Source: Bdellovibrionia bacterium
GTDB taxonomy: Bacteria > Bdellovibrionota > Bdellovibrionia > Bdellovibrionales > JAGQZY01
NCBI GenBank assembly: GCA_030427805.1
Contig: JAUICP010000001.1
Location: 248,001-312,000 of the forward strand
Direction: 5' to 3'
Length of the DNA: 64,000 nucleotides
Both the position numbers and the translations under genes were made by a program. Positions 8,327 to 49,553 of this stretch are shown piece by piece; position 1 is the stretch's first letter, and every line of letters starts with the position of its first letter. Under the pieces are notes generated by a model. It worked only from the letters and a program-made list of their open reading frames with translations, was not told the origin of the DNA and ran no database searches.

Positions 8327-8467
8327 GGGTATTCCCTCAACTTTTCCAAGACTTAGATCAAGTCATTAGTTCATGTGGATCTTCAATAGCATTACTCGAA
8401 ATAGTGAGTGTGTTAAGGAGAAAATTTTGGTGTAATTACTGAGTGTTAGTGCAGTACGGGGAGTTTC

Positions 8468-31189: not shown

Positions 31190-31990
31190 GGCTTGATTCT
31201 CTCCGACAAAGTAAGGCTCTTGAATACCTTTATCTGAATTTTCTGGTTCCAGATCATCAATTTCTAGTGGTTCTGGAGCAATGTGTTCTGGAAAGAATAT
31301 TTTGTACTCAAGATTTTCTACAATTGTATCCACATAATCAGAGTCGAGCTTTTTAAAGCGTCTCATTCTCTTTGCTATTGTCGCAATTAGGTTTTTTTGT
31401 CGTTTATGGATTTCTTTTTCTTCGAGGGACTTTTGAAATCGAACGGGACTGGGCAGAAGGGAGGCTAAAAATATTCCCTCTAAAGCGTTCAATTGTTGAG
31501 GGGGCTTTTGAAAGTAGTGATGGGCAGCCTCTTTAATTCCATAAATATTATCACCAAACTCAATAACATTCAGATAGGCCTGAAAAATTTGTTCCTTGCT
31601 CCAAGTTTCCTCAAGCCTTTGCGCAATGACAACTTCTTTGATCTTACGCAGTAAGGATTTTTCTCGCGAGAGGAACATGTTTTTTGCCAGTTGCTGAGTG
31701 ATCGTCGAGCCACCTCGAGCATACTTTCCTTCTTTAATATTTTTCTTAAAAGATTCTTTGATTTCAAACCAATCGAGTCCTTCATGCGAAAGGAAACTGG
31801 CATCTTCGGCAAGAATAAAGGCCCATTTTACTTCATAGGCGAGGTCTTTGGCGCGGACCATAGAGGCTTGTCCAGGGCAGTAGCTTTTGCCACTGACTTT
31901 TACTACTATGCACTTCTTTGGAGGAGCAATCTCAGGCAATGTGAAGTAGGCGACTCCTGCATAGGTCAAGCCTGCCAGGATCGTGCACAA
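31178..31990 (-). CDS. mtgA: monofunctional peptidoglycan glycosyltransferase
   Basis: GT51 family without a transpeptidase domain. Motifs: ILAEDASFLSHEGLDW (catalytic Glu), GGSTITQQLAKNMF, RKIKEVVIAQRLE and YLNVIEFGDNIYGI. The TTG start given (270 residues) would begin inside the membrane anchor; the open frame extends upstream through SLRGLLIILSSVVL but offers only ATT/ATA there. The C-terminal tail (about 235-270) is acidic. Polymerises lipid II into glycan strands. Confidence 0.9.
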   Translation of the reverse strand: MCTILAGLTYAGVAYFTLPEIAPPKKCIVVKVSGKSYCPGQASMVRAKDLAYEVKWAFILAEDASFLSHEGLDWFEIKESFKKNIKEGKYARGGSTITQQLAKNMFLSREKSLLRKIKEVVIAQRLEETWSKEQIFQAYLNVIEFGDNIYGIKEAAHHYFQKPPQQLNALEGIFLASLLPSPVRFQKSLEEKEIHKRQKNLIATIAKRMRRFKKLDSDYVDTIVENLEYKIFFPEHIAPEPLEIDDLEPENSDKGIQEPYFVGENQALNN

Positions 31991-32022
31991 AACTACTGAA
32001 CTTAAAATTATAAGAAGTCCCC

Positions 32023-33009
32023 TTAAGGATTTAATAGGCCGTTCTCCTTACTCCATCGAATACTTTCTTCGAGTGCTTCATTAGCAGGTTTTGGAGTAAA
32101 GGAAAATGCCTTTTGTGCTTTTGATGAGTCAAACCAGTGATAAAGTGTAGATGTCCATGCATTCTCTGAAGTTATTGGACCTTTGAGCCCAATTTTGTTC
32201 ATAAAGTCTCCCAAGTGACCAATTCCATGCACGAGAAAATTGGGCATTAAAGTTTTAGGAGGCTCAACTTTGGCAATATTTGCAATTCTTTCAAAGAGCT
32301 CTTTTATGAGAATGTTCTCGCTTCCTACAATATAGCGCTCTCCATTTTCGCCCATTTCATAAGCTTTTAAAATACAGTGAAGAACGTCGTCGACGTGAAC
32401 TACATTAACTCCGCCCGAAGTATAAAACTTGAAGTTTCCCTTGGCGACTTTGAGTTGGGTTTTTCGACTTCCCTTTAGGGCATCTCCGGGTCCATATATA
32501 GTAGTTGGGTTGATCATAGAAGCGTGAAAATCACCTTTGAGAGCAGCCTCTCGAACGATATTTTCAGCCGCATGTTTGGTCTCGAAATAGCCAAGGTTGA
32601 GGTGAGACACATTGTAGGGGCTATTCTCATTGAGTGGTTTCTTATCGAAACTCGCCCCGATCGCTACCACTGAACTGAGATAAAGTAAGCGCTGAATACC
32701 ATTTTCGCGACAAGCATCGACCACATTTTGAGTCCCGCCGACATTGACCTTTTCCATGAGGGCTCTTTGTCTCGGGTCATAGGCGATGAGCCCGGCTAAA
32801 TGAAATACACCTTCACAATCTTTGCTGGCTTCGACCATAGAATTCTTGTCGGTAATGTCGCCAGTATATGTTTCGAACTTCTCATCCTCAATCAGGCTGA
32901 GGTCACTGCCCTTGCGATCCATGATACGGACATCAAAGCCTTGTTGATTTAATCTTTTGAGAAGATTGGAGCCGAGAAATCCAGTGGCTCCTGTTAACAA
33001 AACCTTCAT
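32023..33009 (-). CDS. NAD-dependent epimerase/dehydratase (extended SDR)
   Basis: 328 residues from the ATG at 33009, which overlaps the PAP2 stop (TAATG). Rossmann motif TGATGFLGSNLL at residue 6, Ser of the active site in YLSSVVAIG and YFETK (YxxxK). Closest in style to dihydroflavonol reductase-like or hopanoid-associated sugar epimerases. Substrate unknown; the neighbouring lipid phosphatase and transglycosylase suggest a role in envelope lipid or sugar metabolism. Confidence 0.85.
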   Translation of the reverse strand: MKVLLTGATGFLGSNLLKRLNQQGFDVRIMDRKGSDLSLIEDEKFETYTGDITDKNSMVEASKDCEGVFHLAGLIAYDPRQRALMEKVNVGGTQNVVDACRENGIQRLLYLSSVVAIGASFDKKPLNENSPYNVSHLNLGYFETKHAAENIVREAALKGDFHASMINPTTIYGPGDALKGSRKTQLKVAKGNFKFYTSGGVNVVHVDDVLHCILKAYEMGENGERYIVGSENILIKELFERIANIAKVEPPKTLMPNFLVHGIGHLGDFMNKIGLKGPITSENAWTSTLYHWFDSSKAQKAFSFTPKPANEALEESIRWSKENGLLNP

Positions 33010-33608
33010 TATTTGATCTTTCGAAAATTGAAGCTGGGAAAGAAGTTTGGTTTGGCAATCCACCTTCGAAAAAGCAAGAAAAGCAATCGTCCTATGGTGT
33101 AACCGATGAGTGCTCCGGCTAAAACATCAAAGGGATAATGAACCCCCACATAGACACGGCTGTAGGCAATAAGTGCCGCTATGATGTAAAAGAAGGCACG
33201 GAATTGTGGAGAAACCTGTGACAAAAAGGTCATAACCGCAAACATATTCACGGCGTGGTTACTAGGAAATGAGTGTCCAGAATGGGACTTCGTTCTCATC
33301 GTCACTTGCTCGAGAGTTTGTTCGGGTCGTGGACGCTCAATGAGTTCTTTGAACACCCTGTGGTTTAAGTTGTCGCCGATGGCAACACATAAAATAACGC
33401 CAATTAATACTTTTGCCGCCAGTTTTTTCTGATTGAGAATATAAATAATCAAAAAGATGGGTAGAAAACCAAAGCTAAAAAGCTGGTACTTATGGAGATC
33501 TGTAAAAATGGGCATAATTTTATCGAGGGCATAGAAGGACATAGTTTGATTGAGAAATAAGAATAATTCAGCATCAATACCTTGCAGAAATTCTAAAATA
33601 CTATCCAT
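33009..33608 (-). CDS. PAP2-family membrane phosphatase
   Basis: 199 residues from ATG 33608 (a longer in-frame start at 33665 is possible). Polytopic, with the three phosphatase motifs: KELIERPRP, GHSFPSNHA and SRVYVGVHYPFDVLAG. It removes phosphate from a lipid or isoprenoid diphosphate on the periplasmic side. Confidence 0.88.
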   Translation of the reverse strand: MDSILEFLQGIDAELFLFLNQTMSFYALDKIMPIFTDLHKYQLFSFGFLPIFLIIYILNQKKLAAKVLIGVILCVAIGDNLNHRVFKELIERPRPEQTLEQVTMRTKSHSGHSFPSNHAVNMFAVMTFLSQVSPQFRAFFYIIAALIAYSRVYVGVHYPFDVLAGALIGYTIGRLLFLLFRRWIAKPNFFPSFNFRKIK

Positions 33609-33696
33609 TCCCGAGAGCCCTTTTTGAAGTGCTAATAGGTTAAAAACTCTCAGGTTTCTGGTCAATCAATAAGATTTTTCCCAATTGAGCTGGCGT

Positions 33697-36600
33697 TTAG
33701 TTGTCTTCTGGTGGCGGCAATTGATCTTCATCTGCACCTGATTGTTCAGCAGAGATCATCGTAAACATTTGAGCAATCGTGTCAGTGTCTGGATTAGCTG
33801 GATCAAAGCCAAGTTCTTCTAGAATATTGACCATGTGCTCATCGAGAGTGATGGTGAGGACACCTTGAACGTCTTCATCTGCACCGACGACGATTCCTAA
33901 GAATTGCTCCATAAAATCTTCGGGGCCCATCCCCTCTGGAATATCTTGTTCTGCCATGGCCTCAGCCAATTCGGGGTTATGGGCATATTCGACAGGAACT
34001 GTGTTCACTGTTTCGATTTCATCATCGAGGACGTCGTCGGGATCGTAAACAAGATTTACGACTTCGAGTAGATCGTTGATTGAACGCTTCAGAAGTATTT
34101 TAGAAACCCGAGCATTTTTCCAGAGAGCTACTATTTGATTATTGCCTTCGGTGACAAGTTGCATTCCTGTGCCATCATCGTTCAAAGTTAAAGGCAATTC
34201 AAATGCTCCATTCGCTTCATAGGGCTTGTAGGTGAGAATTGGATGTTTGAATCGTCCATCGTTAGATTCTCTTGAGTCTAGGAGTTCCTGTTTTTCGTCT
34301 CCGCGATAAGTTTGGAAGAGATACCAGAATTTTTCCCATGGACCGTTAAAGAAGTCCTCTCGAGCCCTTTCGGCAGCGGGTATAGAAAACTTCAGCCCTT
34401 CAGAGATGGCTCTTAAACCAGTTTTTAATTCGAGCTTTAAGTTATACCAATAATCATCCATGTACTGTTTGCGCTCGACATAGGTGGCGTTAGCCATCTC
34501 ATCACTAATCGACGTGGGCACAAAATCAATTTGTGGCGCTTCTAGAATTCTATCGAAAACGACCTCAAAGAGAAACTCCATTTCTTCAACAGTGCTTTCA
34601 GTAAGATTGTTCTCTTCACCGACGGTTAAGAAGTTATGGAAAGGGTAATCGTCATTTAAAAGTTCAACAGACTTTTGAAAGAGAAAGTTATTAACGGCAT
34701 AGGTTTTTGACTCAACTTGATTAGCGATCGGGTTGAGAGCGACTCGATCCCACCAGTCTTCAAAGTTATCTCCGAGAACCCCTGGGTGAGCTTCATGATA
34801 AAGAAGATCCATGAGGCCTTGATAGTACCTGCGGTCTCCATTGATTTCCTTTGAGGAGGGACTTGCATAGATTTTTTCCCAAATAGCCTTTGGATTATTA
34901 GCATTTCTAATTCTTCCACAATATTCATAGGAATCGTGTCTGAGCAAGCTTCCGATGAAACCGCGATCCACATCCGTCGTTAAGGGGATCTTTGGAGGCG
35001 AAAACCGAACATTACGACGTGGAAATATGAGAAGAAAATTATCTGAAGTGATAGAAACATCATTGTGTTCCATGGTGTCTCCGCCACAAAGCATATTGGT
35101 CATTAAATAGTGACCCATCGATCCCATCTCTGTGGCATTGGCTCCAACAGGGTACCAATTAAAATCGACACCGGCCGCCTGGAAGTTATTATCGTACTCC
35201 ATAAGATAGCGATTACCCATTCCAAGGGGAAGGGGGCCGTGTTCAAGACCAAGATAGCCGTGACCACTCTCGCGATAGTTATTTGGATTGTGAACGTTGT
35301 AATAGCCACCGAACTCAGGCCGAACCCGGTATGAAAAAGGAAGTGAATCCTCAAGGGCAAGGATGGCTTCAGCGGCAGCACAATTATTCGAATCAAAACT
35401 GGTTAAACACGTGGCCAATGTTTCATGGGCGGTAAACTCAAAAAGTTCTATGAGTCGTTCGATCGCTTCATTGCGGTCTCGACTGATACTCGATTTTAAA
35501 AGTGTTGAAATCTGTGAAAGCTCCGCTCGATCCTCTTCTCTAACCCGACCTTCTTCGACTCGATTGTCGATCATAAGAGCTGCTGTATAGAGAGGAGATG
35601 ATAGTTGTCTTTGTAATTCTCTAAAAATACACATGTCGGTGGATTCCATATCGGGGTCCTCACACATGTAGTGGTTTAATGAAAAGGTGCGGGTATGGTC
35701 CGATAGACGTGTGAGTCCGTTGGCCATTTCTGAAAGGTCATCAGATGAAATCAGTTCGTGAATTTCTCTTAATGCATGGTCAATACCGGGGGCCAAATTA
35801 TTGGTAGTAGCCTCAATCACTTGAGCCACGTAATTTGCGATATGTCTGAGGTTCGCTTTTTGTGCGTTCAGTTGCCAAAGGGCATGACTATGCTCTTCTT
35901 CAAAAACTCCATTCCATTGGGGAACTGCCGGCCGGCCCCTTTCATCTTCCTGTACCGTTGTTTTTATTTTATCGTGGGGGCGAACGCCAAAAAGTGGATG
36001 GGTTCTAAATGCCGGGTACTTTTCTTCGGCGAAGAGACTAAGCATTGCGGCACGGTCCGAATCAAAATTACCTTGAGAGCGAAGAAGTGGAGCTCCTTCG
36101 CTTTCTTGCTTTTTAGCATTAATCTGTCCGAGTATATCGCCATAGAAGTGGTAAGAAGCTTTGTGCATGTTATTGGCGTTACTAAAGTATTCAAGCCAGT
36201 TGGTTAAGATTGTCGATACCGGAGATGTTAAAAACTGTCGGTGTTGGCTCAAGGCTGTTTGATAGCTTTGAAAGAGACTGTAAAACCACCTGTCATTTTC
36301 ATTGGCGTTGTCATTACATTCATTAACGATGTAACCGTTGCCATAGGGATCTTGCATAACTTGCCCAATGGAGGTCTCAACGAGTCCATATTGGTCTCGG
36401 ACTTGCTCTAAAACCTCTGGATCTTCAATTTCTTGGACATGTCTGATTTCACATTCTTGGGGAATTTCCATTCCGTCTTCATAGAATTTATCAAGAGCCG
36501 ATCTCAGGTTGTTTCTCGCCTTTTGAATACTAAAGCCCTGTTTGAGGTGGCTCCAAGCATACCGACCGGCGGCCACTCCAATTTCAATAATAATTAAAAA

Positions 36601-38130
36601 AGCTCCGATTTGTATGGCTCCAACTCCGAAGGCAGTGAGTAGGCGCATCGCAGGCCTCACAACAGCTCGACCGATGAGTGCTTTAGGAACGCCTTTTCTC
36701 ATAAGTGTGCGCATTGGCATTTGTCGGAACATTCTCCAATGGCGAACCATGTCTCGATTAGCACCGATTGAATTTGCGAGAGCCTGTGATTGACTTGCGC
36801 CAGCCCAGCTGATTCCGCGCATTCTCTTAAGGGCGTTAAAAGATGTGCCAGCAAAGAGCATAATGTGTTGAGCAGAAAAAATCACAGGAAGCATTATGAG
36901 AAGGCTTGGTAAAATCTGTTGTTTAAAAATTTCGCCAAAATTATCACACCAATTTGTAGCCTCATCTCTTTCGCGAGGACTCATTGGTCGGTCACTTGCG
37001 ATTTTCATACACGAGCTGAGATACTTACCACCTGTGAATATAATTTGCGAAAATAGGAGGCCCATTCCAAGGCCCGCGACTGACATCCCTCGAATTTGGG
37101 TTCCGAGAGACTGTCGATAAAAGCGATCTCGGGTTCGCATATTAGTCGCAAATTTTCCACCTTCAATATAGGGCATCATCGCTTGGGCTAATTTGTGAAC
37201 GTAATTATTCCAGCGAGCTGTGGCAGCACTACCGGCGCCAAAACCCATCATAGAAAAGAGCATCAACATGGAGCCATATTTTTGAACGACTTCGTCGAGG
37301 GCTGCAGGATTGGCCAAGTATTCATAGCGCATTTTAGTCGCTGAATAAGCGTACATGGTAAAAAAGATCATGGCTGTGGTCATAGTCATTTTAGCCGAAC
37401 CACTAGCGAGATCGCGCATCAACGAAGACATTGAGGTATCAAGTCTTATGTGACTTGGAACTCGAGCCGTTGGTGTTCCTCCGACGCCAGGAAGAGTAAT
37501 TTGACCTCGAGCAAGACTTGGAACATTTTGCAAAAGAAAACGAGGACCCGAAACTCTGTACTGACCAGCTTGTTGGGCCTGGTAGGCGGCTCGCGAGGCA
37601 GGATCCCGCCAAATTTCCCAAGCGCGACTACGAACATCTAAGATGTTGGCTTGGTACTCTGACAGAAGGGGTTGCATTCTTTCAAATAGAGCAACGTTTC
37701 TAATATGCATTCTTTCGGCATTTGTCGCGTTACTTGGAAATTCAGGAAGATTGCGAAGAGTTTCCTGCACGAGGCTCGGTCCACCTGAAGTTCTTATAAT
37801 ATGAGCAGCCGAACGAAGCTCTTGATAAAAGCGACTTCTTTCGGCAGCGCTATTGAGGTTATTTGGATTAAAGCTTTCACTGAGAATCGCCATGCGACCA
37901 GAGTTGTAGGCTCTTTCAGCCGTGGCCCGGGTGATATTTTCTCCCGGCGTTAGACCGAGGCTTTCGTGGATGGCAACGGGTGAACTTGTAACTGTAGGAG
38001 ATGTGGGCGCAGAACTGACTCCACTGGGCGTACTCGTATCTGCGCGTAAGCTCAGGGGCACACTTAGAATCATGCTGGCGTTAATCGCAGCAACTAAAAT
38101 GTGGAATGTCAGTGTTTGCAAAAATCTCAT
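33697..38130 (-). CDS. 1477-residue exported multi-spanning protein, unknown
   Basis: Signal peptide (1-30), Ser/Thr/Pro linker, helical region (about 55-200), then about five hydrophobic spans near 247-264, 285-303, 350-367, 406-427 and 497-522, and a soluble C-terminal domain of about 950 residues with scattered cysteine pairs. It ends in a Pro-rich acidic tail (DEDQLPPPEDN). Residues 57-112 weakly resemble a J-domain with HPD changed to NPN. Starts 12 bp after the AAA+ gene, so the two proteins probably act together. No family recognised. Confidence 0.7.
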   Translation of the reverse strand: MRFLQTLTFHILVAAINASMILSVPLSLRADTSTPSGVSSAPTSPTVTSSPVAIHESLGLTPGENITRATAERAYNSGRMAILSESFNPNNLNSAAERSRFYQELRSAAHIIRTSGGPSLVQETLRNLPEFPSNATNAERMHIRNVALFERMQPLLSEYQANILDVRSRAWEIWRDPASRAAYQAQQAGQYRVSGPRFLLQNVPSLARGQITLPGVGGTPTARVPSHIRLDTSMSSLMRDLASGSAKMTMTTAMIFFTMYAYSATKMRYEYLANPAALDEVVQKYGSMLMLFSMMGFGAGSAATARWNNYVHKLAQAMMPYIEGGKFATNMRTRDRFYRQSLGTQIRGMSVAGLGMGLLFSQIIFTGGKYLSSCMKIASDRPMSPRERDEATNWCDNFGEIFKQQILPSLLIMLPVIFSAQHIMLFAGTSFNALKRMRGISWAGASQSQALANSIGANRDMVRHWRMFRQMPMRTLMRKGVPKALIGRAVVRPAMRLLTAFGVGAIQIGAFLIIIEIGVAAGRYAWSHLKQGFSIQKARNNLRSALDKFYEDGMEIPQECEIRHVQEIEDPEVLEQVRDQYGLVETSIGQVMQDPYGNGYIVNECNDNANENDRWFYSLFQSYQTALSQHRQFLTSPVSTILTNWLEYFSNANNMHKASYHFYGDILGQINAKKQESEGAPLLRSQGNFDSDRAAMLSLFAEEKYPAFRTHPLFGVRPHDKIKTTVQEDERGRPAVPQWNGVFEEEHSHALWQLNAQKANLRHIANYVAQVIEATTNNLAPGIDHALREIHELISSDDLSEMANGLTRLSDHTRTFSLNHYMCEDPDMESTDMCIFRELQRQLSSPLYTAALMIDNRVEEGRVREEDRAELSQISTLLKSSISRDRNEAIERLIELFEFTAHETLATCLTSFDSNNCAAAEAILALEDSLPFSYRVRPEFGGYYNVHNPNNYRESGHGYLGLEHGPLPLGMGNRYLMEYDNNFQAAGVDFNWYPVGANATEMGSMGHYLMTNMLCGGDTMEHNDVSITSDNFLLIFPRRNVRFSPPKIPLTTDVDRGFIGSLLRHDSYEYCGRIRNANNPKAIWEKIYASPSSKEINGDRRYYQGLMDLLYHEAHPGVLGDNFEDWWDRVALNPIANQVESKTYAVNNFLFQKSVELLNDDYPFHNFLTVGEENNLTESTVEEMEFLFEVVFDRILEAPQIDFVPTSISDEMANATYVERKQYMDDYWYNLKLELKTGLRAISEGLKFSIPAAERAREDFFNGPWEKFWYLFQTYRGDEKQELLDSRESNDGRFKHPILTYKPYEANGAFELPLTLNDDGTGMQLVTEGNNQIVALWKNARVSKILLKRSINDLLEVVNLVYDPDDVLDDEIETVNTVPVEYAHNPELAEAMAEQDIPEGMGPEDFMEQFLGIVVGADEDVQGVLTITLDEHMVNILEELGFDPANPDTDTIAQMFTMISAEQSGADEDQLPPPEDN

Positions 38131-38142
38131 AATTCGTTTCTC

Positions 38143-41100
38143 TTAGTTAGCAGCAGCACCATCAACAGTAAGTCCAGCGGCATCGTCACTACCAATTCGC
38201 GAAGCATCAAGTGTTTCAGCCACCTCTCCAGCATCTGCCGCTTCATCAGCAATATTAGTAAGTTCATCAGATTCCGAAAGAGCTCTTAAGGCGTCATTAG
38301 ATATGTTCGGGTCGAGAACATCGTATTGGATTAAATCTCCGATATTTTCTGCGGCCACATGCCAGTTGTATTCAGCCATGACGTCTTCGCGGAATAGAAA
38401 ATCAGCGACATTCACTTCCCGCATCTCGGTGACGCCCTCATCATTTCTAAAAGGGAGGCTCACAACTGCGTCAGGATGGTAATCAATATATTTGGATCCA
38501 TCTTCGGCTGTTTTTAGCAGCGGATGATTTGCATTAAAGTTAGCTGCCCCTCCAGTTAGGTAGTCGGGGTTTATTATTATTCTAATTCCCTCTTCGGGCA
38601 TTTCACTCGCATTTTTTAGGCGAATGTTTACAATGTCTCCTTCTTGAAGATAACGAGCACTTCTCATTCCATCGATGGGTTCTTTTAAAAATTGTGAAAT
38701 TCGATGAGGAACGTTTCGTGCTGATCGCATCACTTCTCCACCACCTGCTCGAGCGGCCTGACCACCGAGCAAGTCGTAAACTTCTTGTCGAACGACAACA
38801 CCAATCAGTTGTTCGGCGTAGTCTCGAATGTGTTTACCTTTAAACATACGTCTAACAAGTTCAGACATTTCAGGATTGATAAACTCTTGAACTAAATAAA
38901 TCCCATCAGCACGGTTTAATAACTCTGGTCTCAGGACCCTCTCTCCTGGTCTCTTGGCAACATTGGCTAGACCACTGTCGGCGGCAAGAAGCTGATCATT
39001 AATAATTGATCCTGACTCCTTAATTCGATTTGTATTTTGTAGATGTATGAGTCTCTCAAAGAGTTCAGGTTGTCTTTCTGCTACATCTCTAAGTAGGTTG
39101 GCAGAAACAATAACCGTCCAATTGACACCATACTCAACTCCAGAGGCCATATCCCTCCAAACTCCAGTTTCTAATACTGTAAGAAGGATATCTAGAATTT
39201 CGGGATCCATTTTTTCGATCTCATCAAGCATCAGGACACCGTTAGGACTTGATTGGGCGAACTTGGTCATGCGACCGCCGCCACCTTCTTTGTATCCGAC
39301 ATATCCCGGGGGGGCACCAATGAGAGCTGCTCGCGAGTGGGCATCGGCGTGTTGTCCACCCTCGACAAGCATCATTTGGTTACCACCAACAATTTTTTGA
39401 AGGGCGCGACCAATTTCTGTCTTACCAAGGCGAGACTCACCAAAGAGAAAGAAAATCCCTTTGAGCCCTTGACCAGTATCGGTCATTTTAACTTTTAGAA
39501 TTCGCGCAATGTCTTTTAAGATTGGCGCTTGACCGACAATCCAGTTAGAAAGGTCCTGACTGATTCTCTCAAAGACTCGCATATCACCACGAATTTGTGC
39601 GCGGATTCGTCCAATCGCGATATCTGTGGCCTCTCCAAACTGAGCTTCCGCAGCCGTTTCTACGAGAAGATCAAAGTCTATTTCATTCAGAGCACCGATC
39701 GAACGAAGATTTGATGTATGGGCCGTTTCGGCTGTGTTATTTGATAATCGCAGTAGCTCCGCCGGATTCATTTCTTCAATTTCTGTAATAAGTGCTTCAG
39801 TTTTTTCAATTCGAAGCTGAAGAGATCGCATCATTCTGGTGTTTCCAGCCTCGCGAGCTTGTTCCATCACTCTCGTGACCTGTTCAATTTCGGATCGATA
39901 AATATTTGTAAAATAGTCGACAAGTCTTGGAGCATCAATGGCTTCCGCAACTGAATCAAAAATTCGCGCTTGCTCATCGATGTTATCACCAGCCATCCGA
40001 AGAGCTTCTTCAATTTCTTCCATGAATTGTCGCTTTTGCATTAATTGAGTCTCAGCTTGAGCAATTTCCTCAATTTGTTCTTCGATCTGCGCCCTTTCGG
40101 CCTGAAGTTTTTCAAACTGACTTTGAATTTCTAACCGCTCTTTTCTAAGAAACGGCATATCGTCGGGAAGAGCAGTTTCATCAAAGTTTTCTACATCAAG
40201 TCTATTGTAAGCATCTTGGTTAAATTCAATTCTCTCTGGATCAAAATCATCAGCTCTTCTAGCTAGCCTTTGATTGAGCTGTCGCCCTTTCTCAATAATA
40301 TTGGTAATTTTATCTTCAACATCAATTAGGGCCTGGGGACGTCCAGCTGCTCGTTTTGTCTGTAGTTTATTAACCGCATCTTCTAATAATCTAATACCGG
40401 CACCTGGAGGGTGAATAACTCGATTTGTACCATTTGGAGTGTATCCGTTTTTCACTATTCGCGCGGCATCGTCTGCAAGGGATTGGGGAATATCAACACC
40501 GTACCTAGTTTGTAAGTGTTCAATATGCTGCATTAAAATCATAGGTGCAGAGTTCACATCAGGTACAGGAACGTCGACTTGTGCGACTCCATCCATTCTT
40601 TGTAACTCAATTTCATCTATAATTGACGCATCATCGGTTCGTGCAATGACTTGTGCATGATCAGTCATTCTTTGTAGTGCGCCAAGAAAGATAGCTCCAG
40701 GGGATTGCTCTCTATTAGAATTGGTTGATGAGGGTTTAAGCTTTTCGAATCCGTCTATATCTATAATAATCCTATGACCAGCTTCTTGAGCTATTCTGAG
40801 GTTTTCAATGAGACCATCTAAAAACATTTCTCTTTGGTCTCTGGGAATAGCAGAAGAAAGATAGTGATCGATATCAAATCTAAGAACAAGACTTTTTTCC
40901 AACCCGTTAGGCAAAACAAAGTCGTTACCCAAAGTTCTCAACTCTTCAAGATTCATCACAGTTGAATTTGTGAATATTTCCACGAGTGTTTTCTTACCAA
41001 CTCCAGTCGGTCCAGTTATGAAAGTTATACGATTTGAGTCAGCATTAAGTATCTGTTTTAAACGACGAAAAGGAGTTGCTAAAGTTGGCCAATGGATATT

Positions 41101-41433
41101 TGTATATTGGTTAGCGGCTGCTCGCGCTGTAATATTGTCGAAGATTTCAGGGTTCCTGAGCATCCGCGTATCGCCACCTCTTAAAGTGGGGATATGAGAC
41201 ATCGAACGAACAAACCTTGGTTCAACGACACTTCTCTTAACCTGGGCGATGCGGGCTCCGCTAGTTCCTTCTGGGAGAAATCTTCGAAATATTGAGTTGA
41301 TCACAGACCACCCTGTATTTCCAGGTTGGGGAATGAGCGTGATCGCCGAGCAAATTAATACGAGAGAAATTATACTCATATTTATTCTGTGAGCGAACTT
41401 TAACTGAGTCTGTTTTGCGAATCTATTCTTCAT
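38143..41433 (-). CDS. ClpB-like AAA+ protein with N-terminal membrane/export segment
   Basis: 1096 residues from the ATG at 41433. A basic N-terminus and a hydrophobic stretch (SIISLVLICSAITLI, about 20-34) come first. NBD1 (about 100-365) has a damaged Walker A GPTGVGKK and IIIDIDG in place of a Walker B. A long coiled coil (about 430-560) sits where ClpB has its M domain. NBD2 (about 625-880) is intact: GESRLGKT, pore loop GYVG in GAPPGYVGYKEGG, Walker B LMLDEIEK, sensor 1 VSAN, Arg finger LRPELLNR. About 200 extra residues follow. ClpB normally has no export signal. Confidence 0.85.
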   Translation of the reverse strand: MKNRFAKQTQLKFAHRINMSIISLVLICSAITLIPQPGNTGWSVINSIFRRFLPEGTSGARIAQVKRSVVEPRFVRSMSHIPTLRGGDTRMLRNPEIFDNITARAAANQYTNIHWPTLATPFRRLKQILNADSNRITFITGPTGVGKKTLVEIFTNSTVMNLEELRTLGNDFVLPNGLEKSLVLRFDIDHYLSSAIPRDQREMFLDGLIENLRIAQEAGHRIIIDIDGFEKLKPSSTNSNREQSPGAIFLGALQRMTDHAQVIARTDDASIIDEIELQRMDGVAQVDVPVPDVNSAPMILMQHIEHLQTRYGVDIPQSLADDAARIVKNGYTPNGTNRVIHPPGAGIRLLEDAVNKLQTKRAAGRPQALIDVEDKITNIIEKGRQLNQRLARRADDFDPERIEFNQDAYNRLDVENFDETALPDDMPFLRKERLEIQSQFEKLQAERAQIEEQIEEIAQAETQLMQKRQFMEEIEEALRMAGDNIDEQARIFDSVAEAIDAPRLVDYFTNIYRSEIEQVTRVMEQAREAGNTRMMRSLQLRIEKTEALITEIEEMNPAELLRLSNNTAETAHTSNLRSIGALNEIDFDLLVETAAEAQFGEATDIAIGRIRAQIRGDMRVFERISQDLSNWIVGQAPILKDIARILKVKMTDTGQGLKGIFFLFGESRLGKTEIGRALQKIVGGNQMMLVEGGQHADAHSRAALIGAPPGYVGYKEGGGGRMTKFAQSSPNGVLMLDEIEKMDPEILDILLTVLETGVWRDMASGVEYGVNWTVIVSANLLRDVAERQPELFERLIHLQNTNRIKESGSIINDQLLAADSGLANVAKRPGERVLRPELLNRADGIYLVQEFINPEMSELVRRMFKGKHIRDYAEQLIGVVVRQEVYDLLGGQAARAGGGEVMRSARNVPHRISQFLKEPIDGMRSARYLQEGDIVNIRLKNASEMPEEGIRIIINPDYLTGGAANFNANHPLLKTAEDGSKYIDYHPDAVVSLPFRNDEGVTEMREVNVADFLFREDVMAEYNWHVAAENIGDLIQYDVLDPNISNDALRALSESDELTNIADEAADAGEVAETLDASRIGSDDAAGLTVDGAAAN

Positions 41434-41450
41434 TGTACTTTCCAATTTAG

Positions 41451-43340
41451 CTATCGCCTGAGCGATTTAATACGTGCATATCTTTCTAATATTTCAAAAA
41501 CTCGACCACGAGTTCTCGGATTTCTTATCAAACGAATTGTAGGGCCTAAGGCTCCACGCATGGCAATCACACCGGTTCCAACTGGCGCCATAATGTATTC
41601 CATAATTAAGTCTTTGGAGCGTTGATCGAGGCGTTCAATTGCCATCATCACGAAAATTCCGTCCTCAGGCCCAACTCCAGAGCTTGAGAAAAACCTTTGA
41701 TACTCTTGTAAATAGCGATTGTTGGCTAAACTTACGAACTCTAAGTTAATTCCGAGACCGGTAACAAGGCCACACGAAAGCACCGCAGCCCAACGGGTAG
41801 TTAAAAGTCTGCCGAGCATAAATTTTGCGACCCACTTTATTCGACCAATGGGCAAAACCATTGATACACATGAAACGCCGAGGGCCACTGCCACTCCTGC
41901 TTCGCGCATGACCTGCCAAAACTCTGTGCTTTCAAGATCGGCTTTAAGTTCGTCAATATGAGTTTGAGTAATCCCTTCAAGCTCTCCATTTTCCGCAACG
42001 ATATCTTCCCAGCTTTGATCCACCAAATTGGCATTGGCCATCAATGGGAGTAAATCATCGTAACTATCAAAAGTATTCATTTCTCCAAAAGCCTCGCGAG
42101 TCTTTTCACTCATAAAAAGATAAAGCTCGAAAGCCTCTTTGAGTTGCGGATAGAAGTGAGTAAATGGATATCCTGATTGCTCTTGGTAGGCGAGATCTCC
42201 TTCAGTGGGTCCTTCTTGTGGCAGACTCATTAAACCAATCACAGGAAACTGATTAAGCTTTAAAAAGTAATCTTCTTTAAAAGACTTCCAGACATCTTCA
42301 CGACCACTGTGCATGTAGTTGTCGAGGCCGTAGTTATCCCAGCGAGTAAACATATCTTTTTCATGCTCAAGGCGTCTTTGAAATTCAGCCTCAATTTCGC
42401 GATTTCGAGTATCCCAGTGATTTTGATCTTCTTCGCTCAAGAAGTAGTCAATTCTTACGTCTCTTCCTTCTGATTGAGCGTCAAAAATAGATTGAGCCCA
42501 AGCATCGAGTTCATCGTAGAGAGGTTGTCTGAATTCATTGTGAATTTGTTCTTCAATATGTGGAAGGTGAAGAATTTCGGTAAAATTTAAACCGATATCT
42601 CTTCTATGGCCTTCAGTTGTACATTCATTTTCGACAAATCCCACTTGAATGCCGAGCTCACGTCGATCATAAAACTCCTGTTCTTTTTGATAGAGCTTAG
42701 TTAAGAATCTACGATCCGCTTCGCACTTCTCTTCAGGAGACAGGTGGGGTAATTCAGGTGGCTCAGGGACGCCCTCAAAATCTACAAGAAAATGGCTAAA
42801 CTTGTGTCGCACTCGATTGTTAAAGCGATAGGATCTATATTCCGGTCGTTTTAAAACATAGTACTGATCAGTTCTTCGTCTCGGTCCCGATAGCGCGGCA
42901 AAGAGCCGCATTTCATTATAGGCTTCGATGATTCGGTCAACACCGTATTCGTAATCGTTAGTCTCGCCACTGTAGCGGCCACGAAGGAACTCTTCACAGA
43001 TTTCAAAATTATCCATGCGATACTGATGCCCCTCATCTCCACTATCAAGACAGTGAATACGGTCTCGAACATATAGTTCATTGGCGAGGACATGGCCTTG
43101 ATAGATCGTACGTAGAGCCGTGAGGAATTTGAGTTTGAGAGCCCGGTCAGCTTGAATTCTTTGATTCTCTTCGACGAGAGCACAAAAATCCTCTTGGGAG
43201 TAATAACTGAATTCGTCGACAGCCGCTTGGTCGAAACCACCGCATTGGGCAAAGGATGGGGCATAAAATAACAGCACGAGGACACTTGCTAAAAGTGCTT
43301 TTTTATTTAGTAATTTTGAGAAATTAGAAATAGTCCTCAT
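41451..43340 (-). CDS. 629-residue exported protein with two C-terminal membrane spans, unknown
   Basis: Signal peptide cleaved near SFA-QCGG (31). A large charged, helical mature domain with cysteine pairs (QCGG, DFC, IHC, EIC, KCE, NEC), then two hydrophobic segments (about 481-498 and 517-533) and a basic C-terminus. That layout suggests a periplasmic body anchored to the inner membrane. It is the first gene of the trio with the AAA+ and the 1477-residue protein (gap of 17 bp). No family recognised. Confidence 0.68.
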   Translation of the reverse strand: MRTISNFSKLLNKKALLASVLVLLFYAPSFAQCGGFDQAAVDEFSYYSQEDFCALVEENQRIQADRALKLKFLTALRTIYQGHVLANELYVRDRIHCLDSGDEGHQYRMDNFEICEEFLRGRYSGETNDYEYGVDRIIEAYNEMRLFAALSGPRRRTDQYYVLKRPEYRSYRFNNRVRHKFSHFLVDFEGVPEPPELPHLSPEEKCEADRRFLTKLYQKEQEFYDRRELGIQVGFVENECTTEGHRRDIGLNFTEILHLPHIEEQIHNEFRQPLYDELDAWAQSIFDAQSEGRDVRIDYFLSEEDQNHWDTRNREIEAEFQRRLEHEKDMFTRWDNYGLDNYMHSGREDVWKSFKEDYFLKLNQFPVIGLMSLPQEGPTEGDLAYQEQSGYPFTHFYPQLKEAFELYLFMSEKTREAFGEMNTFDSYDDLLPLMANANLVDQSWEDIVAENGELEGITQTHIDELKADLESTEFWQVMREAGVAVALGVSCVSMVLPIGRIKWVAKFMLGRLLTTRWAAVLSCGLVTGLGINLEFVSLANNRYLQEYQRFFSSSGVGPEDGIFVMMAIERLDQRSKDLIMEYIMAPVGTGVIAMRGALGPTIRLIRNPRTRGRVFEILERYARIKSLRR

Positions 43341-43435
43341 GCATGAATTATTTGCAATGGTTGTACCAAAATGGGACTACCTTAGTGGGGCTGGCCTAAG
43401 GCATTTAGAGGCTCATCAATTTTTGCCAGACATAT

Positions 43436-43450
43436 GATCAATGATTGATC
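43436..43450. promoter_or_regulatory. 15-bp palindrome upstream of the 629-residue protein gene
   Basis: GATCAAT-G-ATTGATC, a perfect 7-1-7 dyad about 100 bp before the start codon. On the minus strand it lies just downstream of AT-rich TTTAAAATATT, so it may be a repressor site at the trio's promoter. Confidence 0.45.
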
Positions 43451-43500
43451 GGGGTAATATTTTAAAGGCTGTGAGGATTTTAAAAGTTGATTGAGCTAAA

Positions 43501-43526
43501 AAAAAGCTCCCAAAAAGGGAGCTTTT
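43501..43526 (-). terminator. terminator of the Ala-rich exported protein gene
   Basis: Minus strand: AAAAGCTCCC-TTTTT-GGGAGCTTTTTTT, a strong stem followed by a T-run, 31 bp after the stop codon. Confidence 0.9.
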
Positions 43527-43556
43527 ATAATTTCATTTTAGATGTGTATCTCTAAA

Positions 43557-44207
43557 TTAGAGAGATCCACCGGCAGCAGCAGCTTCACCGCAATCTTGGA
43601 ACATTTGCTCAGCAGTGTTGCGAGCAGTTGCTTCGTCAACGTTTCTGATAGAAGCGATGGCACCGATAACAGCTTCACCAGCAGACTTACCACTGTTTAC
43701 ACCAGCTACAACTTCAGTGAAAAGTTGGTTAGCAGCGATAGAAGCGTTGTCACCGAAAAAGCTTTCAGCGTTGATGATACCGTTGTTTTGATCGTTAGTG
43801 ATGAAAGCAAGAAGAGCTTTTTCACCAGCGTCAGAAGTATTAGGGTTGATGTCTTTAGCAGAAGCCATAAGCTTAACTAAGTTAAGAAGAAGACCCTTTT
43901 GCTCATTAGTAAGAGAATCTTTCATTTCTTCCATCTTAGAGTTAACTGCATCCAAACCAGAAGCGATTTTAGCATTGTTTTGGATTGCAGCAGTGATGTC
44001 AGTAATAACTGTAGAGTCACTAACACCAGCAGCTAAAGAAGCAGCAGAAGCACCAGCAGCATTAACTACCGCACCAACTGTTCCTTGAACAGCTTGAGCA
44101 ATTGCTTGTTGGTTACCAGATTGAACAGCAGCTTGAAGAGCCGTATTAGCCATAGAAGGCACACTCAATAACGTAGCCGCTAGAACTGTAATAAAAAACT
44201 TTTTCAT
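43557..44207 (-). CDS. Ala-rich small exported protein, unknown
   Basis: 216 residues. Signal peptide KKFFITVLAATLLSVPSMA; the mature protein is rich in Ala, Asn, Val and Gly and almost entirely helical, with a single Cys near the end (FQDCGEAAAAGGSL). GGAGG precedes the ATG and a strong terminator follows, pointing to a highly expressed single-gene unit. No family recognised; a structural envelope or matrix protein is one guess. Confidence 0.7.
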   Translation of the reverse strand: MKKFFITVLAATLLSVPSMANTALQAAVQSGNQQAIAQAVQGTVGAVVNAAGASAASLAAGVSDSTVITDITAAIQNNAKIASGLDAVNSKMEEMKDSLTNEQKGLLLNLVKLMASAKDINPNTSDAGEKALLAFITNDQNNGIINAESFFGDNASIAANQLFTEVVAGVNSGKSAGEAVIGAIASIRNVDEATARNTAEQMFQDCGEAAAAGGSL

Positions 44208-44570
44208 TTTTCCTCCGAATAATAATAATTATCTAGTGCCTGAATTTCTAAGGCCCATATTGTTTTAATTGGTTACGGGTACCTCTTTTACACTAATTAT
44301 GCCACGCGTCAAGCCCTGGATTTGGGGCTCTACTGCCCGTGATTTGAATCTGAGAATATGTGTGGGCGCAATTTTGTAGGCAGGTGCCGTGTTTCGTTTT
44401 GAGACTGAGTGGTTGGTGAAACTGGAGTTTAATATCGGTCCCTTTCTTTCAAAATTGGCCTTTCTTGAGGCCGGCGTAATCACATTAAAAACTAAGTATT
44501 TTTGAATATTTAGCGCCTTTAATGGAATGATAGTTCTTTTTATATCAGGGATCTAAAATCTGTTCTCAGA
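44208..44570. other. 363-bp intergenic region
   Basis: Contains the leader and ribosome-binding site (GGAGG, 44212-44216 on the minus strand) of the Ala-rich protein gene. A 72-codon minus-strand frame at 44265-44483 has no ribosome-binding site and no protein-like pattern. Nothing else could be supported. Confidence 0.4.
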
Positions 44571-45827
44571 TTAGAGGGGACCATCTTCGCCCTGGGCTCC
44601 TGGGGGAAGATTAGATTCGTAGTAGGGATCGTTGGGGCCCGGTATTTTCAAAAAAAGTTGTGGGATTCGAGCTCTCTGCCAATTGGCAATAACACTGACT
44701 TGTCTTTCTTTGGCTTCACTGAGGACTTTACCGTAACTATAGAAAATCTGTTGCGCTTGAAAGAGTCGAATCACTTCTTCATCAAGAAAATCCAATTCGA
44801 CAAGGCGAGTACTTCGGGTTCCTGCAACAGTAGCAATTTCACCGATATAATCGAGAGCATTATCATCCTCAGGGAGTGCCTCTTCCCATTCCATTAAGTT
44901 GAAACTATCAAAAACGATATCGCCATCTTGATTTCTTCTGGCATTCGTAAAAACGAGCCCCCTTTGTGCGAGGGGAGATTCAAGGGCAGTGTTTGCGGGA
45001 TCCTCTGGTTGCAGAAGGTTTTCATGCAAATTAACTTCTGTAATACTATCCGGGTTTACACCAAGATCTTTTTTAATCTTAATGAGGCGAACACCTAAAA
45101 ATTCTCCACTACCGGTTTCGAAAATAGGTAGTAAGGCCACCTCTTGTGGGTTGTAAGCTCGATAACGAGAACGTGTCCCCGGGTAAAGAACATCGAGCCC
45201 TGAAAAACTAATATTGATCTCAACGAGACCGTGTTCTAAATCAATTTCTCTTTGGCGAACTCGATCGAGTTCTTCTTTTAAGTCAGAGAGCTCTCGACTT
45301 GAACAACCACGACAAGTTGTTCCTACGAAGACTTCTTCTGTTTGATCACTTTGCCGATACCAAATTTCAATAAATCCGGTTTTTTCCTGAAGAAAACTAG
45401 TTAAACCACGTGGATTGGTATCAATGACTCTGAACTCTATTTGTTGGGGTAGAACTCTTAAAACAGCGATCTGCAGTGTATTTTTGACGTCGTTTTCTAA
45501 TACCACCATCGAACGGTGATATCGTGCAAGGTCAATGGTAGAGCGAATTCCGGGTAATTCAGCTTCTCTAACAACAATTTCATTAACTTTTGCGAGTCGA
45601 AGATTTTGATCGAAGACTCGATACTGACCCGGTTCACTTTCAATGGCTTCGATAAGGATATCTTCAGGAAAGGATAATCCATCGAGACCATAGGTAATAT
45701 TATCGAGTAGATCTGATTCTTCCGCCTTTAACGATAGACCAGCAAAGAGTAGGCAAATGCTTAACGCAATCACTATGAGGTATCGAGCTTGAGAAGAGTT
45801 AAAGGCAAAATTTGAAATCATTTTCAT
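44571..45827 (-). CDS. 418-residue exported protein, unknown
   Basis: Signal peptide near residues 15-35 (YLIVIALSICLLFAGLSLKA). A beta-rich first half contains a CRGC motif (TTCRGCSSRELSDLKEELDRV) that leads into a short coiled coil; a mixed second half follows. It ends in a Pro/Gly acidic tail (LPPGAQGEDGPL). CRGC may be a redox or metal site. No family recognised. Stands between the cyclophilin and the Ala-rich gene on the same strand. Confidence 0.62.
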   Translation of the reverse strand: MKMISNFAFNSSQARYLIVIALSICLLFAGLSLKAEESDLLDNITYGLDGLSFPEDILIEAIESEPGQYRVFDQNLRLAKVNEIVVREAELPGIRSTIDLARYHRSMVVLENDVKNTLQIAVLRVLPQQIEFRVIDTNPRGLTSFLQEKTGFIEIWYRQSDQTEEVFVGTTCRGCSSRELSDLKEELDRVRQREIDLEHGLVEINISFSGLDVLYPGTRSRYRAYNPQEVALLPIFETGSGEFLGVRLIKIKKDLGVNPDSITEVNLHENLLQPEDPANTALESPLAQRGLVFTNARRNQDGDIVFDSFNLMEWEEALPEDDNALDYIGEIATVAGTRSTRLVELDFLDEEVIRLFQAQQIFYSYGKVLSEAKERQVSVIANWQRARIPQLFLKIPGPNDPYYESNLPPGAQGEDGPL

Positions 45828-45953
45828 TAATCTACTTTGTTGAAATTGTATCAGCCTAGTTCTAAGGCAATCTCAATACCAACTCGAATTCATATCTATT
45901 GATGATAGGGGCGTTTAAATATTGATGGTTTAAACAATTTGGGGCACCGAAGC

Positions 45954-46790
45954 TTACTTGTCGACCTTATAGACTTCGACTTTTTCGATGATTATTGGTT
46001 TCATGGGTCGTTGAAGAGCATCCACATCAACATTGGCAATCTTATTGAGAACTTCTTGGCCTTCGATGACCTCTCCAAAAATCGTAAACCCATTGTTTAG
46101 GTCAGGTCGAGGCACGACATTAATAAAAAGCTGACTTCCATTGGTGTTCGGGCCGTAGTTGGCATAGGCGAGCATATAGGCTCTATCAAAACTGAGGCCG
46201 TTTTCGACTTCATCTTCAATTTGAAAACCAGGACCACCAGTCCCGTTTCCGAAAGGACAACCGAAGTGTATCGTACTTTTTCCTGTGACTTGATGAATGG
46301 TAAGGCCATCATAAAAAGGTCGTCTTACTTTTCTGCCAGATATTTCGGTAAACACTTTCGTACCCATGGCAAGCCCTATGAAGTTAGAAACAGCGATGGG
46401 AGCTTCGCGCCCCTTGAGTACAACCGAAAAGCGGCCTTTGTTAGTAACGAATTGGGCATGAATATTATTATCACTGAGAGACCCAAGAAATGGATTATCA
46501 GCATCACGGTAGGCAGTTTCTTTTTTAGGTTTAAAACCGTTAGAAGTGCCTGGTGAAGGCGATCCCGGGTTGGGCGGTGGAAGCTGAGAATTATCGACGT
46601 CTCCCGGCGGCGGAGGAACTTCTTCACCGGGTGGCGGTGGAAGTTGATCGCCACCATCTGCACCGTCGGGAATTAATTCGCTCGGAGGAGGAGGTAGATC
46701 GTTTTGCCCATAAGCGATACTTACACCCGTTAAACTAATGAGTATCATGAGACAAACGATATAACTGACTTTCTTATGAGCCTTTACCAT
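45954..46790 (-). CDS. exported cyclophilin-like protein with proline-rich linker, active site altered
   Basis: 278 residues. Signal peptide, then a Pro-rich stretch (about 31-85: LPPPPSELIPDG, QLPPPPGEEVPPPPGD), then a cyclophilin domain (about 105-275). Fold markers are present (ANYGPNTNGSQLFINVVP, GFTIFGEVIEGQEVL), but the catalytic FHRV segment reads IHQV, so the catalytic Arg is Gln, and the following QGG is HFG. It may be a binding protein rather than an isomerase. Lies after tolB. Confidence 0.82.
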   Translation of the reverse strand: MVKAHKKVSYIVCLMILISLTGVSIAYGQNDLPPPPSELIPDGADGGDQLPPPPGEEVPPPPGDVDNSQLPPPNPGSPSPGTSNGFKPKKETAYRDADNPFLGSLSDNNIHAQFVTNKGRFSVVLKGREAPIAVSNFIGLAMGTKVFTEISGRKVRRPFYDGLTIHQVTGKSTIHFGCPFGNGTGGPGFQIEDEVENGLSFDRAYMLAYANYGPNTNGSQLFINVVPRPDLNNGFTIFGEVIEGQEVLNKIANVDVDALQRPMKPIIIEKVEVYKVDK

Positions 46791-46963: not shown

Positions 46964-48343
46964 CTAGTCCATATAAGGCGACCAACGAGGCGCAAAGTAA
47001 TCGTGAGTATCGAATGTAATTCTTCGCTCGTTAGTTCCGTCAACGTTTACTAAATAGAGTTGGTAATATCCGCTACGGTTTGAGGTAAAAATAATGTGGC
47101 GACCATCGGGAGAAAAACTAGGACTTTCGTTGTCAGACCAAGTGCCGTCTTTTTTGCGCGCCGATGTTAGGCGAACCATATTAGTGCCGTTGGTATCCAT
47201 CATGAATACGTCAAACTTACCCTTGTCATGGCCGGCAAAAGCGATCTTCTTGCCATCTGGTGAAAAGACAGGGGTGGAGTTATATCGTCCAGCATAGGTT
47301 CGTTTTTCCACATTTCGACCGTTAATATCCATGACATAAATCATAGGTTTAGAGCTTCGATCCGATGAAAAAACAATTTTCTGTCCATCGGGGCTAATAG
47401 AAGGTTCAACATTCATAGCTCCCCGAGGTCCGTTTGTGAGTGGTCGAATTTTTTTGCCGTCAACGGACATAGTAAAAAGGTCGGATACACCTTTATTTGA
47501 GATTCGAAGAAGGATTTGTGACATATCAGGAAAGAAAACGCCGCCCGAGTTAATTCCTTTGCGATAGGAAAGAACCCACCTGCGAGCATTGCTAAGGTCG
47601 TATCTCATCAAGTCGGCATTTCTCGATTTCTTGCGCTTGTGATAGTTAAAAGTCGAATAAAGAATCGACTTCCCATCGGGAGCCCAGCTCGGAGAAAAAG
47701 AAATACTTCGGTGATTGGTGATTTGAATTGGATTTTGACCGTCGTAATCGAGTACGAAGATCTCTTTTTGTTGGCGACCCGACGTTCTACCAACTACGAG
47801 TTTTGTCGTAAATATACCCTTTTTGCCAGTTAACTTATATACGATATCATTAGCAAATTTATGGGCGATGGCTCTAACATCCTTCGTACGGCCTTCGTAG
47901 GTCTTAGCTAATACAGTTTGGGCCTTTGGAATGTAGTAGAGGTAAGCTTCGAAAGACAATTTGCTGCCAACAACTTTATATCCCGCTCGAATAAGAAACT
48001 CGGCTCCCAAAGGGCGCCACTTACCAAAATCAAAACCATTTGGCGCTGAGCCTTTGGGTGTCAGCGCTGTTTTTGTAGCGTCCTCAAGAAAGGCATCTTG
48101 GGGGATGAAGCGAAAGTAAGAGCTTACAGATAAATCATTAAACAACGTAGTGAATAGCTTGTTTCCGAGTTTTAACTGGCTGTTGCCCGGCTTCGATCCC
48201 AAATACTGAAATGCTGGAAGGGCCATCAAACTTTTTTTAAGGTTTGCCGAGCCTACATTGATATAGAGTTTAGAGCCGGACTGGGCTTGAGACACAAAAG
48301 GGAGCGTCAATACAAATAGAAATACATAAACTAATCTTTTCAT
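46964..48343 (-). CDS. tolB: Tol-Pal system protein TolB
   Basis: 459 residues. Signal peptide ends at SQAQ; an N-terminal TolB_N domain (about 25-150), then a six-bladed beta-propeller with the repeat PDGKKIAFAGHDKGKFDVFM-type signature seen at least five times. Periplasmic partner of Pal and TolA. Lies last in tolQRAB, 9 bp after tolA. pal and cpoB are not adjacent. Confidence 0.95.
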   Translation of the reverse strand: MKRLVYVFLFVLTLPFVSQAQSGSKLYINVGSANLKKSLMALPAFQYLGSKPGNSQLKLGNKLFTTLFNDLSVSSYFRFIPQDAFLEDATKTALTPKGSAPNGFDFGKWRPLGAEFLIRAGYKVVGSKLSFEAYLYYIPKAQTVLAKTYEGRTKDVRAIAHKFANDIVYKLTGKKGIFTTKLVVGRTSGRQQKEIFVLDYDGQNPIQITNHRSISFSPSWAPDGKSILYSTFNYHKRKKSRNADLMRYDLSNARRWVLSYRKGINSGGVFFPDMSQILLRISNKGVSDLFTMSVDGKKIRPLTNGPRGAMNVEPSISPDGQKIVFSSDRSSKPMIYVMDINGRNVEKRTYAGRYNSTPVFSPDGKKIAFAGHDKGKFDVFMMDTNGTNMVRLTSARKKDGTWSDNESPSFSPDGRHIIFTSNRSGYYQLYLVNVDGTNERRITFDTHDYFAPRWSPYMD

Positions 48344-48352
48344 TCTTATCCC

Positions 48353-49129
48353 CTAGTCTGGAAATCTGAGTTCTAATCCATCAACTTCCAGTATATTTTC
48401 GAACTTATTTGGAGGTTGAGGAAAGGGTGAAGCCTGCTTTATTGATTCGAGAACTTTTTGGTCAAAAATTGTGTTATTGGACGACTGAGTTAATTTCGCC
48501 GACTTCACAAAGCCTCGTTTATCCAAATACACCACGATCTTAGCACTTAAATTGCTACTAGCTAACCATTCAGGTAAATTCCAATACTTTTTAACGTGAT
48601 CATCAACTCGATCCAGATATTCGTCGTGTTGAAGCTTGTTTATTCCCGTTAATGAGGTACCCGCCGCCAATATATTGCCTTTGTATTGAATCGTCTCTAT
48701 TTGCTTAACGGCCTTAAGATCACTACCAGCAACTGGTTCAGCCTCTGGCTTCTTGTTCTTTCTAAGATTCTTTAAGCGCTCAAATGCGGATTTTTGATTT
48801 TTTTTGAAATCAACCTTTGGTTTTGCCGGTTCGGGAGCTTTTGGTTTTGGTTCCGGTTTTTTGGGTTCGGGAGCTTTTGGTTTCTCAGGCTCCTTTGGCT
48901 GTTTTTTTGCTTTCTGCTCGACCTTCTTAAGCTCGCTAATCACTTTGTCCGGCAGATCCACGACATCGACTCGCACCGCTCTTTTGAACTCGATGGGTTC
49001 CGAGGGAAAAAGAACAATTTTTAAAGTTAGCACCAAAAACAGAATACCATGGACAGTAATCGAGATAAAAAACGAAGTCTTAAACTCGTCTGGTCTTTCA
49101 ATTTCTTCTTCAAGAACTCTCGAATCCAT
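48353..49129 (-). CDS. tolA: TolA/TonB-family energy-transducing protein
   Basis: 258 residues, short for TolA. One N-terminal membrane span (FFISITVHGILFLVLTL), a Lys/Pro/Glu linker (about 70-115, repeated KAPEPKKPEPK), and a C-terminal TonB/TolA domain (WNLPEWLASSNLSAKIVVYLDKRG). Being between tolR and tolB it acts as TolA; the proline-rich linker is more like TonB. Confidence 0.88.
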   Translation of the reverse strand: MDSRVLEEEIERPDEFKTSFFISITVHGILFLVLTLKIVLFPSEPIEFKRAVRVDVVDLPDKVISELKKVEQKAKKQPKEPEKPKAPEPKKPEPKPKAPEPAKPKVDFKKNQKSAFERLKNLRKNKKPEAEPVAGSDLKAVKQIETIQYKGNILAAGTSLTGINKLQHDEYLDRVDDHVKKYWNLPEWLASSNLSAKIVVYLDKRGFVKSAKLTQSSNNTIFDQKVLESIKQASPFPQPPNKFENILEVDGLELRFPD

Positions 49130-49137
49130 AGACTCAT

Positions 49138-49551: not shown

Positions 49552-49553
49552 AA

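Follow-up and report, generated by a model that had tools for sequence, protein, structure and literature searches.

An Hsp100 motor can function away from its usual compartment provided that ATP is available, as human CLPB does in the mitochondrial intermembrane space (PMC9934407) and HSP101 does in PTEX (PMC7355975). The locus described here lies in a 64,000-nucleotide stretch of a Bdellovibrionia bacterium genome, which we refer to as the window, and codes for a Clp-type AAA+ protein with a putative export signal next to a large membrane protein, BIG. To our knowledge, the prevailing view is that the bacterial periplasm contains no ATP, and the textbook periplasmic chaperones and proteases that we know of act without it; the absence of ATP counts against reading the AAA+ protein as an extracytoplasmic motor. 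A literature search for bacterial periplasmic AAA+ proteins, which was not exhaustive, found none, and a search for an ATP/ADP translocase (PF03219) gave no match, its control being silent as well. Our preferred reading, held at a little under even confidence, is that the locus specifies an extracytoplasmic Hsp100-type unfoldase docked on a BIG platform with an exported adaptor, together forming an envelope protein-remodelling machine.

The six consecutive minus-strand open reading frames (ORFs) described in the first-pass annotation are all where it placed them. These are BIG (1477 aa; 33697..38130), the ClpB-like, putatively exported AAA+ protein (38143..41433 from its ATG start, with a TTG-extended ORF reaching 41445, 1100 aa), a 629-aa exported partner with a signal peptide and two C-terminal hydrophobic segments (41451..43340), a 216-aa Ala-rich secreted protein (43557..44207), a 418-aa exported CRGC protein (44571..45827), and a 278-aa exported cyclophilin with an altered active site (45954..46790). 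The reported gaps of 17 bp between the 629-aa gene and the AAA+ ATG start and of 12 bp between the AAA+ and BIG genes are correct. The run is longer than the six genes, however, with tolB, tolA-like, tolR, and tolQ (46964..50297) directly upstream and PAP2, epimerase, and transglycosylase genes (31178..33665) directly downstream, all on the same minus strand; both groups are conserved flanks of the BIG locus, the tol genes across the order. This Tol neighborhood was overlooked in the first-pass annotation, as was the export signal of the AAA+ protein. The cyclophilin fills a conserved cyclophilin slot between tolB and BIG, and its description as catalytically altered is borne out by the motif LTIHQVTGKSTIHFGC, where a Bdellovibrio-type relative has LTFHRVIKDFMIQGGC. 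The window genome (G000) is 4.5 Mb and the closest relative found is the sister genome L006, in which the whole block is collinear; the six ORFs are not chance because their frames and order are intact there, bar one break. We note that this frame break, near the BIG C terminus (L006 17370-17756), is probably an assembly error since contig coverage is only ∼1×. A homologue of the 418-aa protein was seen in the sister genome only.

The AAA+ protein matches Clp-type profiles, best to ClpC and ClpB, and the D2 domains of human CLPB and HSP101 also match. It has two AAA domains, the second (D2; 38746..39558, minus strand) being of AAA_2 type with Walker A GESRLGKT (39418..39441, minus strand), Walker B MLDE, the sensor-1 N, and the Arg finger NR all intact, and with the ClpB-type substrate-threading pore loop GAPPGYVGY (39292..39318, minus strand). 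The two domains and the GYVGY loop are traits of class I ClpB/Hsp100 proteins, but the catalytic Walker B glutamate, which such proteins carry in both nucleotide-binding domains (NBDs), is lost in D1 and intact in D2. The NCBIfam scores are far below the equivalog cutoffs (79 of 1232 bits for ClpB and 99 of 885 bits for ClpV). PADLOC defense models gave generic AAA matches only for this protein and none for BIG or the 629-, 418-, and 216-aa proteins, and none of these last four has a match above noise in Pfam, NCBIfam, PHROG, PADLOC, or PDB. This agrees with the first-pass proposal of an undescribed system. AlphaFold models of BIG residues 540-1240 and of the 629-aa protein have a pLDDT of about 32, too low to be useful.

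BIG belongs to what its sequence indicates is an undescribed protein family. In the class, profile searches find homologues in 115 of 144 genomes. Every listed Bdellovibrio-type genome (genus g7) is among them, and one of these codes for a 921-aa form (L086 5206-7971). Many of these loci share the order tolQRAB, cyclophilin, BIG, small secreted protein, PAP2, epimerase, and transglycosylase, and L136, from a different genus in the same family as the window genome, has a similar order downstream of BIG, without PAP2. The window protein has the features that define the family: a signal peptide, ∼4 transmembrane helices, Cys374/Cys395, the CGPD, F-PP, and WW motifs, and the tol/PAP2/epimerase neighborhood. 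Family-averaged hydropathy shows a signal peptide and five peaks at residues 246-515 followed by a soluble part of ∼960 aa. About four of the five peaks probably span the membrane (residues ∼285-515, with peaks at 285-303, 349-367, 410-428, and 497-515; 36586..37278, minus strand), and the C-terminal domain is probably periplasmic, since the loop charges and the cysteine pairs Cys374/Cys395 (in a loop of the membrane region; kept in 31 of 32 homologues) and Cys1015/Cys1071 (25 of 32) fit this topology. The earlier description of BIG as multi-spanning was thus overstated. Published mutants exist for Bd0149 (G256V; PMC11323537) and Bd0150 (PMC6561027), and a link of BIG to either was rejected as unproven: residue 256 is Pro in the 921-aa Bdellovibrio-type BIG and the locus position seems not to fit.

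The AAA+ and 629-aa proteins are distributed quite differently from BIG, with full-length AAA+ homologues in 4 of 369 genomes of the phylum (G000, G075, G098, and G135; three genera in two families) and 629-aa homologues in the same four; a fifth 629-aa match, at E = 0.007, was treated as noise. The two genes adjoin BIG and each other wherever contigs allow. G098 (L021), which belongs to a different family, has the order small secreted protein, 629-aa protein, AAA+, and BIG, with the tol genes absent from the stretch read around them, and in G135 (L019) the BIG and AAA+ genes overlap by 4 nt and the 629-aa gene sits at one end of another, short contig. The co-occurrence and the order kept in L021 support the first-pass view of a core trio, but BIG is found almost throughout the order in genomes that lack the AAA+ and 629-aa genes, so the trio is not one inseparable core, and the annotation's own refutation test (failure of the three genes to co-occur in relatives) partly applies. 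Its idea of a chaperone-like motor tied to a membrane body fares similarly, in that the Clp/Hsp100 type, the threading pore loop, and the genetic link to BIG and the 629-aa protein agree with it, and the separability of the trio does not. Judged by these distributions, BIG is the ancestral element of the locus and the AAA+ and 629-aa proteins are accessory.

Reading the neighborhoods of BIG itself gave further cases of this association. Scanning 103 BIG-bearing loci for Clp-type D2 domains revealed, beyond the four orthologues, four more putatively exported Clp-type AAA+ proteins beside BIG in three further genera. One locus (L138, family f8) codes for two of them: a 922-aa protein whose gene overlaps BIG by 4 nt, and a 1337-aa protein adjoining BIG (L138 1098-5111, plus strand) with a signal peptide, a Clp-type AAA_2 domain, and an FtsH-type M41 peptidase with an HETGH motif, an apparent exported AAA+ protease. 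The others are in L157 (family f9), with the order AAA+ (835 aa), a 564-aa protein, BIG, and a small protein, and in L140 (family f3), in which a 645-aa protein and an AAA+ protein (985 aa) form a pair divergent from BIG; neither the 564-aa nor the 645-aa partner has detectable homology to the 629-aa protein. The profile survey had scored only two to five Clp-like candidates in each genome and had not picked up L138, L140, or L157, so 4 of 369 is too low a figure for exported AAA+ proteins overall. All strong Clp-type AAA+ matches in the 103 loci carry an N-terminal hydrophobic signal-like segment, and in a D2 tree the branches are long and monophyly of the exported forms is not resolved. We also note a PrkA-type AAA protein 0.5 kb from BIG in L107 (1417-4098, minus strand; 893 aa), with a signal-like N terminus and an uncertain start codon. 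One could take BIG for an ordinary envelope protein linked to tol and suppose that unrelated AAA+ and 629-aa genes landed beside it by chance, as their rarity and the many BIG loci lacking them would allow. We consider this very improbable, because L021 and, partly, L019 show the same arrangement at sites away from tol, and putatively exported AAA+ proteins adjoin BIG in three further genera, including as overlapping genes.

The placement of the AAA+ protein outside the cytoplasm is predicted from its N terminus. The first ∼40 residues (41314..41433, minus strand) form a putative signal peptide or signal anchor whose character is kept in all orthologues; each copy has a charged n-region, of +3 to +5 in every copy tested, followed by a hydrophobic core. 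A simple home-made rule on this n-region/hydrophobic pattern passes all six copies of the two AAA+ families and none of five cytosolic Clp proteins. AXA-type ends to the segment are present in L021, in L019, and in the second AAA+ protein of the window genome; the window protein has no clear AXA site in this segment and may therefore hold an uncleaved anchor. The signal-like segment points to export of the motor from the cytoplasm. A low cysteine count was considered as further evidence of export and rejected, the cytosolic ClpB of the same genome having none.

The second putatively exported Clp-type protein of the window genome lies elsewhere (G000:C6:634500-654000; L078 8834-12133, minus strand). 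It is a 1099-aa protein with two AAA domains, a signal peptide, and an acidic linker, and is adjoined by two further exported proteins (7524-8822, minus strand, and 12455-14221, plus strand), with BIG absent from its neighborhood; the locus is 95% identical in the sister genome, as expected. All of these N termini bear on the alternative that the AAA domains are cytoplasmic, the segment being a reversed-topology anchor or translation starting downstream. The ATP problem would then vanish, the window gene does have in-frame internal starts at codons 78 and 91, and positive charges also follow the segment. We nevertheless judge it decidedly unlikely: the n-region charge in every copy tested predicts an N-in, body-out orientation, most copies have AXA cleavage sites, an acidic stretch follows the segment in the second AAA+ protein, the internal starts are not conserved, and the same coincidence would be needed in about eight separate proteins.

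As for the nucleotide sites, the D1 Walker B glutamate is gone in the four orthologues and in the second AAA+ protein of the window genome, whereas each of the four orthologues retains the Walker A motif, sensor 1, and the GAPxGY pore loop of D2. The D2 Walker B is DE except in L021, which has DD and is also without the D2 Arg finger. In L157 the roles are reversed, with D1 intact and D2 decayed, and every exported copy retains intact ATP motifs in at least one domain. Between the sister genomes, nucleotide identity of the AAA gene is about 0.65 against about 0.9 on both sides, and pS is 0.75 (saturated) against 0.26 to 0.43 in most neighbors; the boundaries are abrupt, at about 41.43 and 38.15 kb. 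Fast evolution of the gene was rejected because synonymous saturation is confined to it, and for the same reason we conclude that the AAA gene alone was swapped for a diverged allele (38150..41430, minus strand) inside an operon that is otherwise ∼90% identical. D2 residues 619-738 are nonetheless 90 to 97% identical in amino acids between the sisters, with very low dN, which indicates strong purifying selection on the motor core. These data weigh against an ATP-independent scaffold, in which the exported AAA+ fold would serve as an oligomeric ring without ATP hydrolysis. Such a scaffold would suit a periplasm without known ATP, and the loss of the D1 glutamate and the decay of D2 in L157 are in keeping with it; yet with at least one complete nucleotide site in each copy, L157 included, low dN in D2 against saturated dS, and the pore loop kept in four orthologues, we regard it as quite unlikely.

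In the unfoldase reading that we prefer, BIG, as an ancestral tol-linked inner-membrane protein, would supply the platform, with its large domain facing the periplasm. A Clp/Hsp100 AAA+ protein would in some lineages be exported by its own signal peptide and dock on BIG, presumably as a hexamer and helped by a second exported, membrane-attached partner, here the 629-aa protein. The D2 ring, with its intact ATP site and GYVGY loop, would pull on envelope or secreted proteins and unfold, extract, or thread them, and D1, having lost its catalytic glutamate, would serve assembly. The 216-aa secreted protein would be a candidate client or structural partner. Its earlier description as abundant-looking is supported by the strongest codon bias among the 53 window genes (Nc 33.2 versus a median of 55.1), and its low synonymous divergence (pS 0.052; dS 0.054, versus a dS of 0.3 to 0.6 in neighbors) follows from that extreme bias, so the protein is probably highly expressed. 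The region just upstream of its gene is nearly identical in the sister genome. Elsewhere, a secreted protein of 210 to 250 aa with a C-terminal cysteine motif is next after BIG in most genomes (L058, L086, L077, and similar), often with an Nc below that of every other gene at the locus (16 of 44, with 4.1 expected). Homology between it and the 216-aa protein is unsupported in HMM comparison (hhalign probability, 3%), and BLAST gives no support for relating the 216-aa protein to the small secreted protein of L021.

One possible source of energy, if the organism is a predator, would be ATP from prey. It is conceivable that the AAA+ protein leaves the predator envelope altogether and works at the prey interface in the manner of PTEX, driving protein transfer with prey ATP. 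Intraperiplasmic predators occupy a compartment fed by prey contents, and B. bacteriovorus reportedly takes up ATP. HSP101, itself among the AAA+ matches, is a ClpB-type unfoldase that is exported and is coupled to a pore in a membrane (PMC7355975). We think this unlikely, however, because the loci examined in the Bdellovibrio genus contain BIG with no exported Clp-type AAA+ protein adjoining it, and an outer-membrane pore component was not seen. A broader proposal is that Hsp100-type unfoldases driven by ATP, one of them an AAA+-M41 protease, operate in this order on a dedicated BIG platform, either within the periplasm or where predator meets prey, with an ATP supply of their own; we advance it tentatively, as a possibility that we would bet against. 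Clp-type motors with export signals, a selected ATP site, and a conserved platform would present a testable challenge to the rule that periplasmic chaperones and proteases act without ATP, and for predators prey ATP might power work outside the predator cytoplasm. They would also offer an initial clue to BIG, which is undescribed although most of the order retains it, and would be a bacterial parallel to the exported Hsp100 machinery found in mitochondria and in malaria parasites.

Among described systems, ClpB and ClpC share with the window AAA+ protein the two AAA domains and the D2 Walker A and B, sensor 1, Arg finger, and GYVGY loop, and differ in that the window protein has a predicted signal peptide, has lost the D1 catalytic glutamate, and has no Clp N-domain that we could find; against NCBIfam ClpA, ClpB, and ClpV models it reaches at most 99 bits, with cutoffs of 885 to 1232. 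Among NCBIfam models, ClpV (TssH) of type VI secretion systems scores best for both putatively exported AAA+ proteins of the window genome, but ClpV is cytosolic, the score is 99 bits against its cutoff of 885, and no type VI core genes were recognized among the neighbors read. ATP enters the mitochondrial intermembrane space through porins. Human CLPB (SKD3) resembles the window protein in having a single working ClpB-type D2 and a compartment outside the matrix (PMC9934407), and aligns to it through D2 and the small domain over residues 628-893, with an ankyrin domain in place of the decayed D1. The PTEX complex (HSP101, PTEX150, and EXP2) combines an exported ClpB-type motor, an adaptor, and a membrane component (PMC7355975), as the window system would if its motor is exported; it differs in belonging to a eukaryotic parasite and in the two active NBDs of HSP101, and no EXP2 or PTEX150 homologues were seen here. 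FtsH differs in that its AAA domain is cytoplasmic, and the window protein is without a peptidase, but the relative beside BIG in L138 comes close to FtsH in fusing a putatively exported AAA_2 module to an M41 peptidase.
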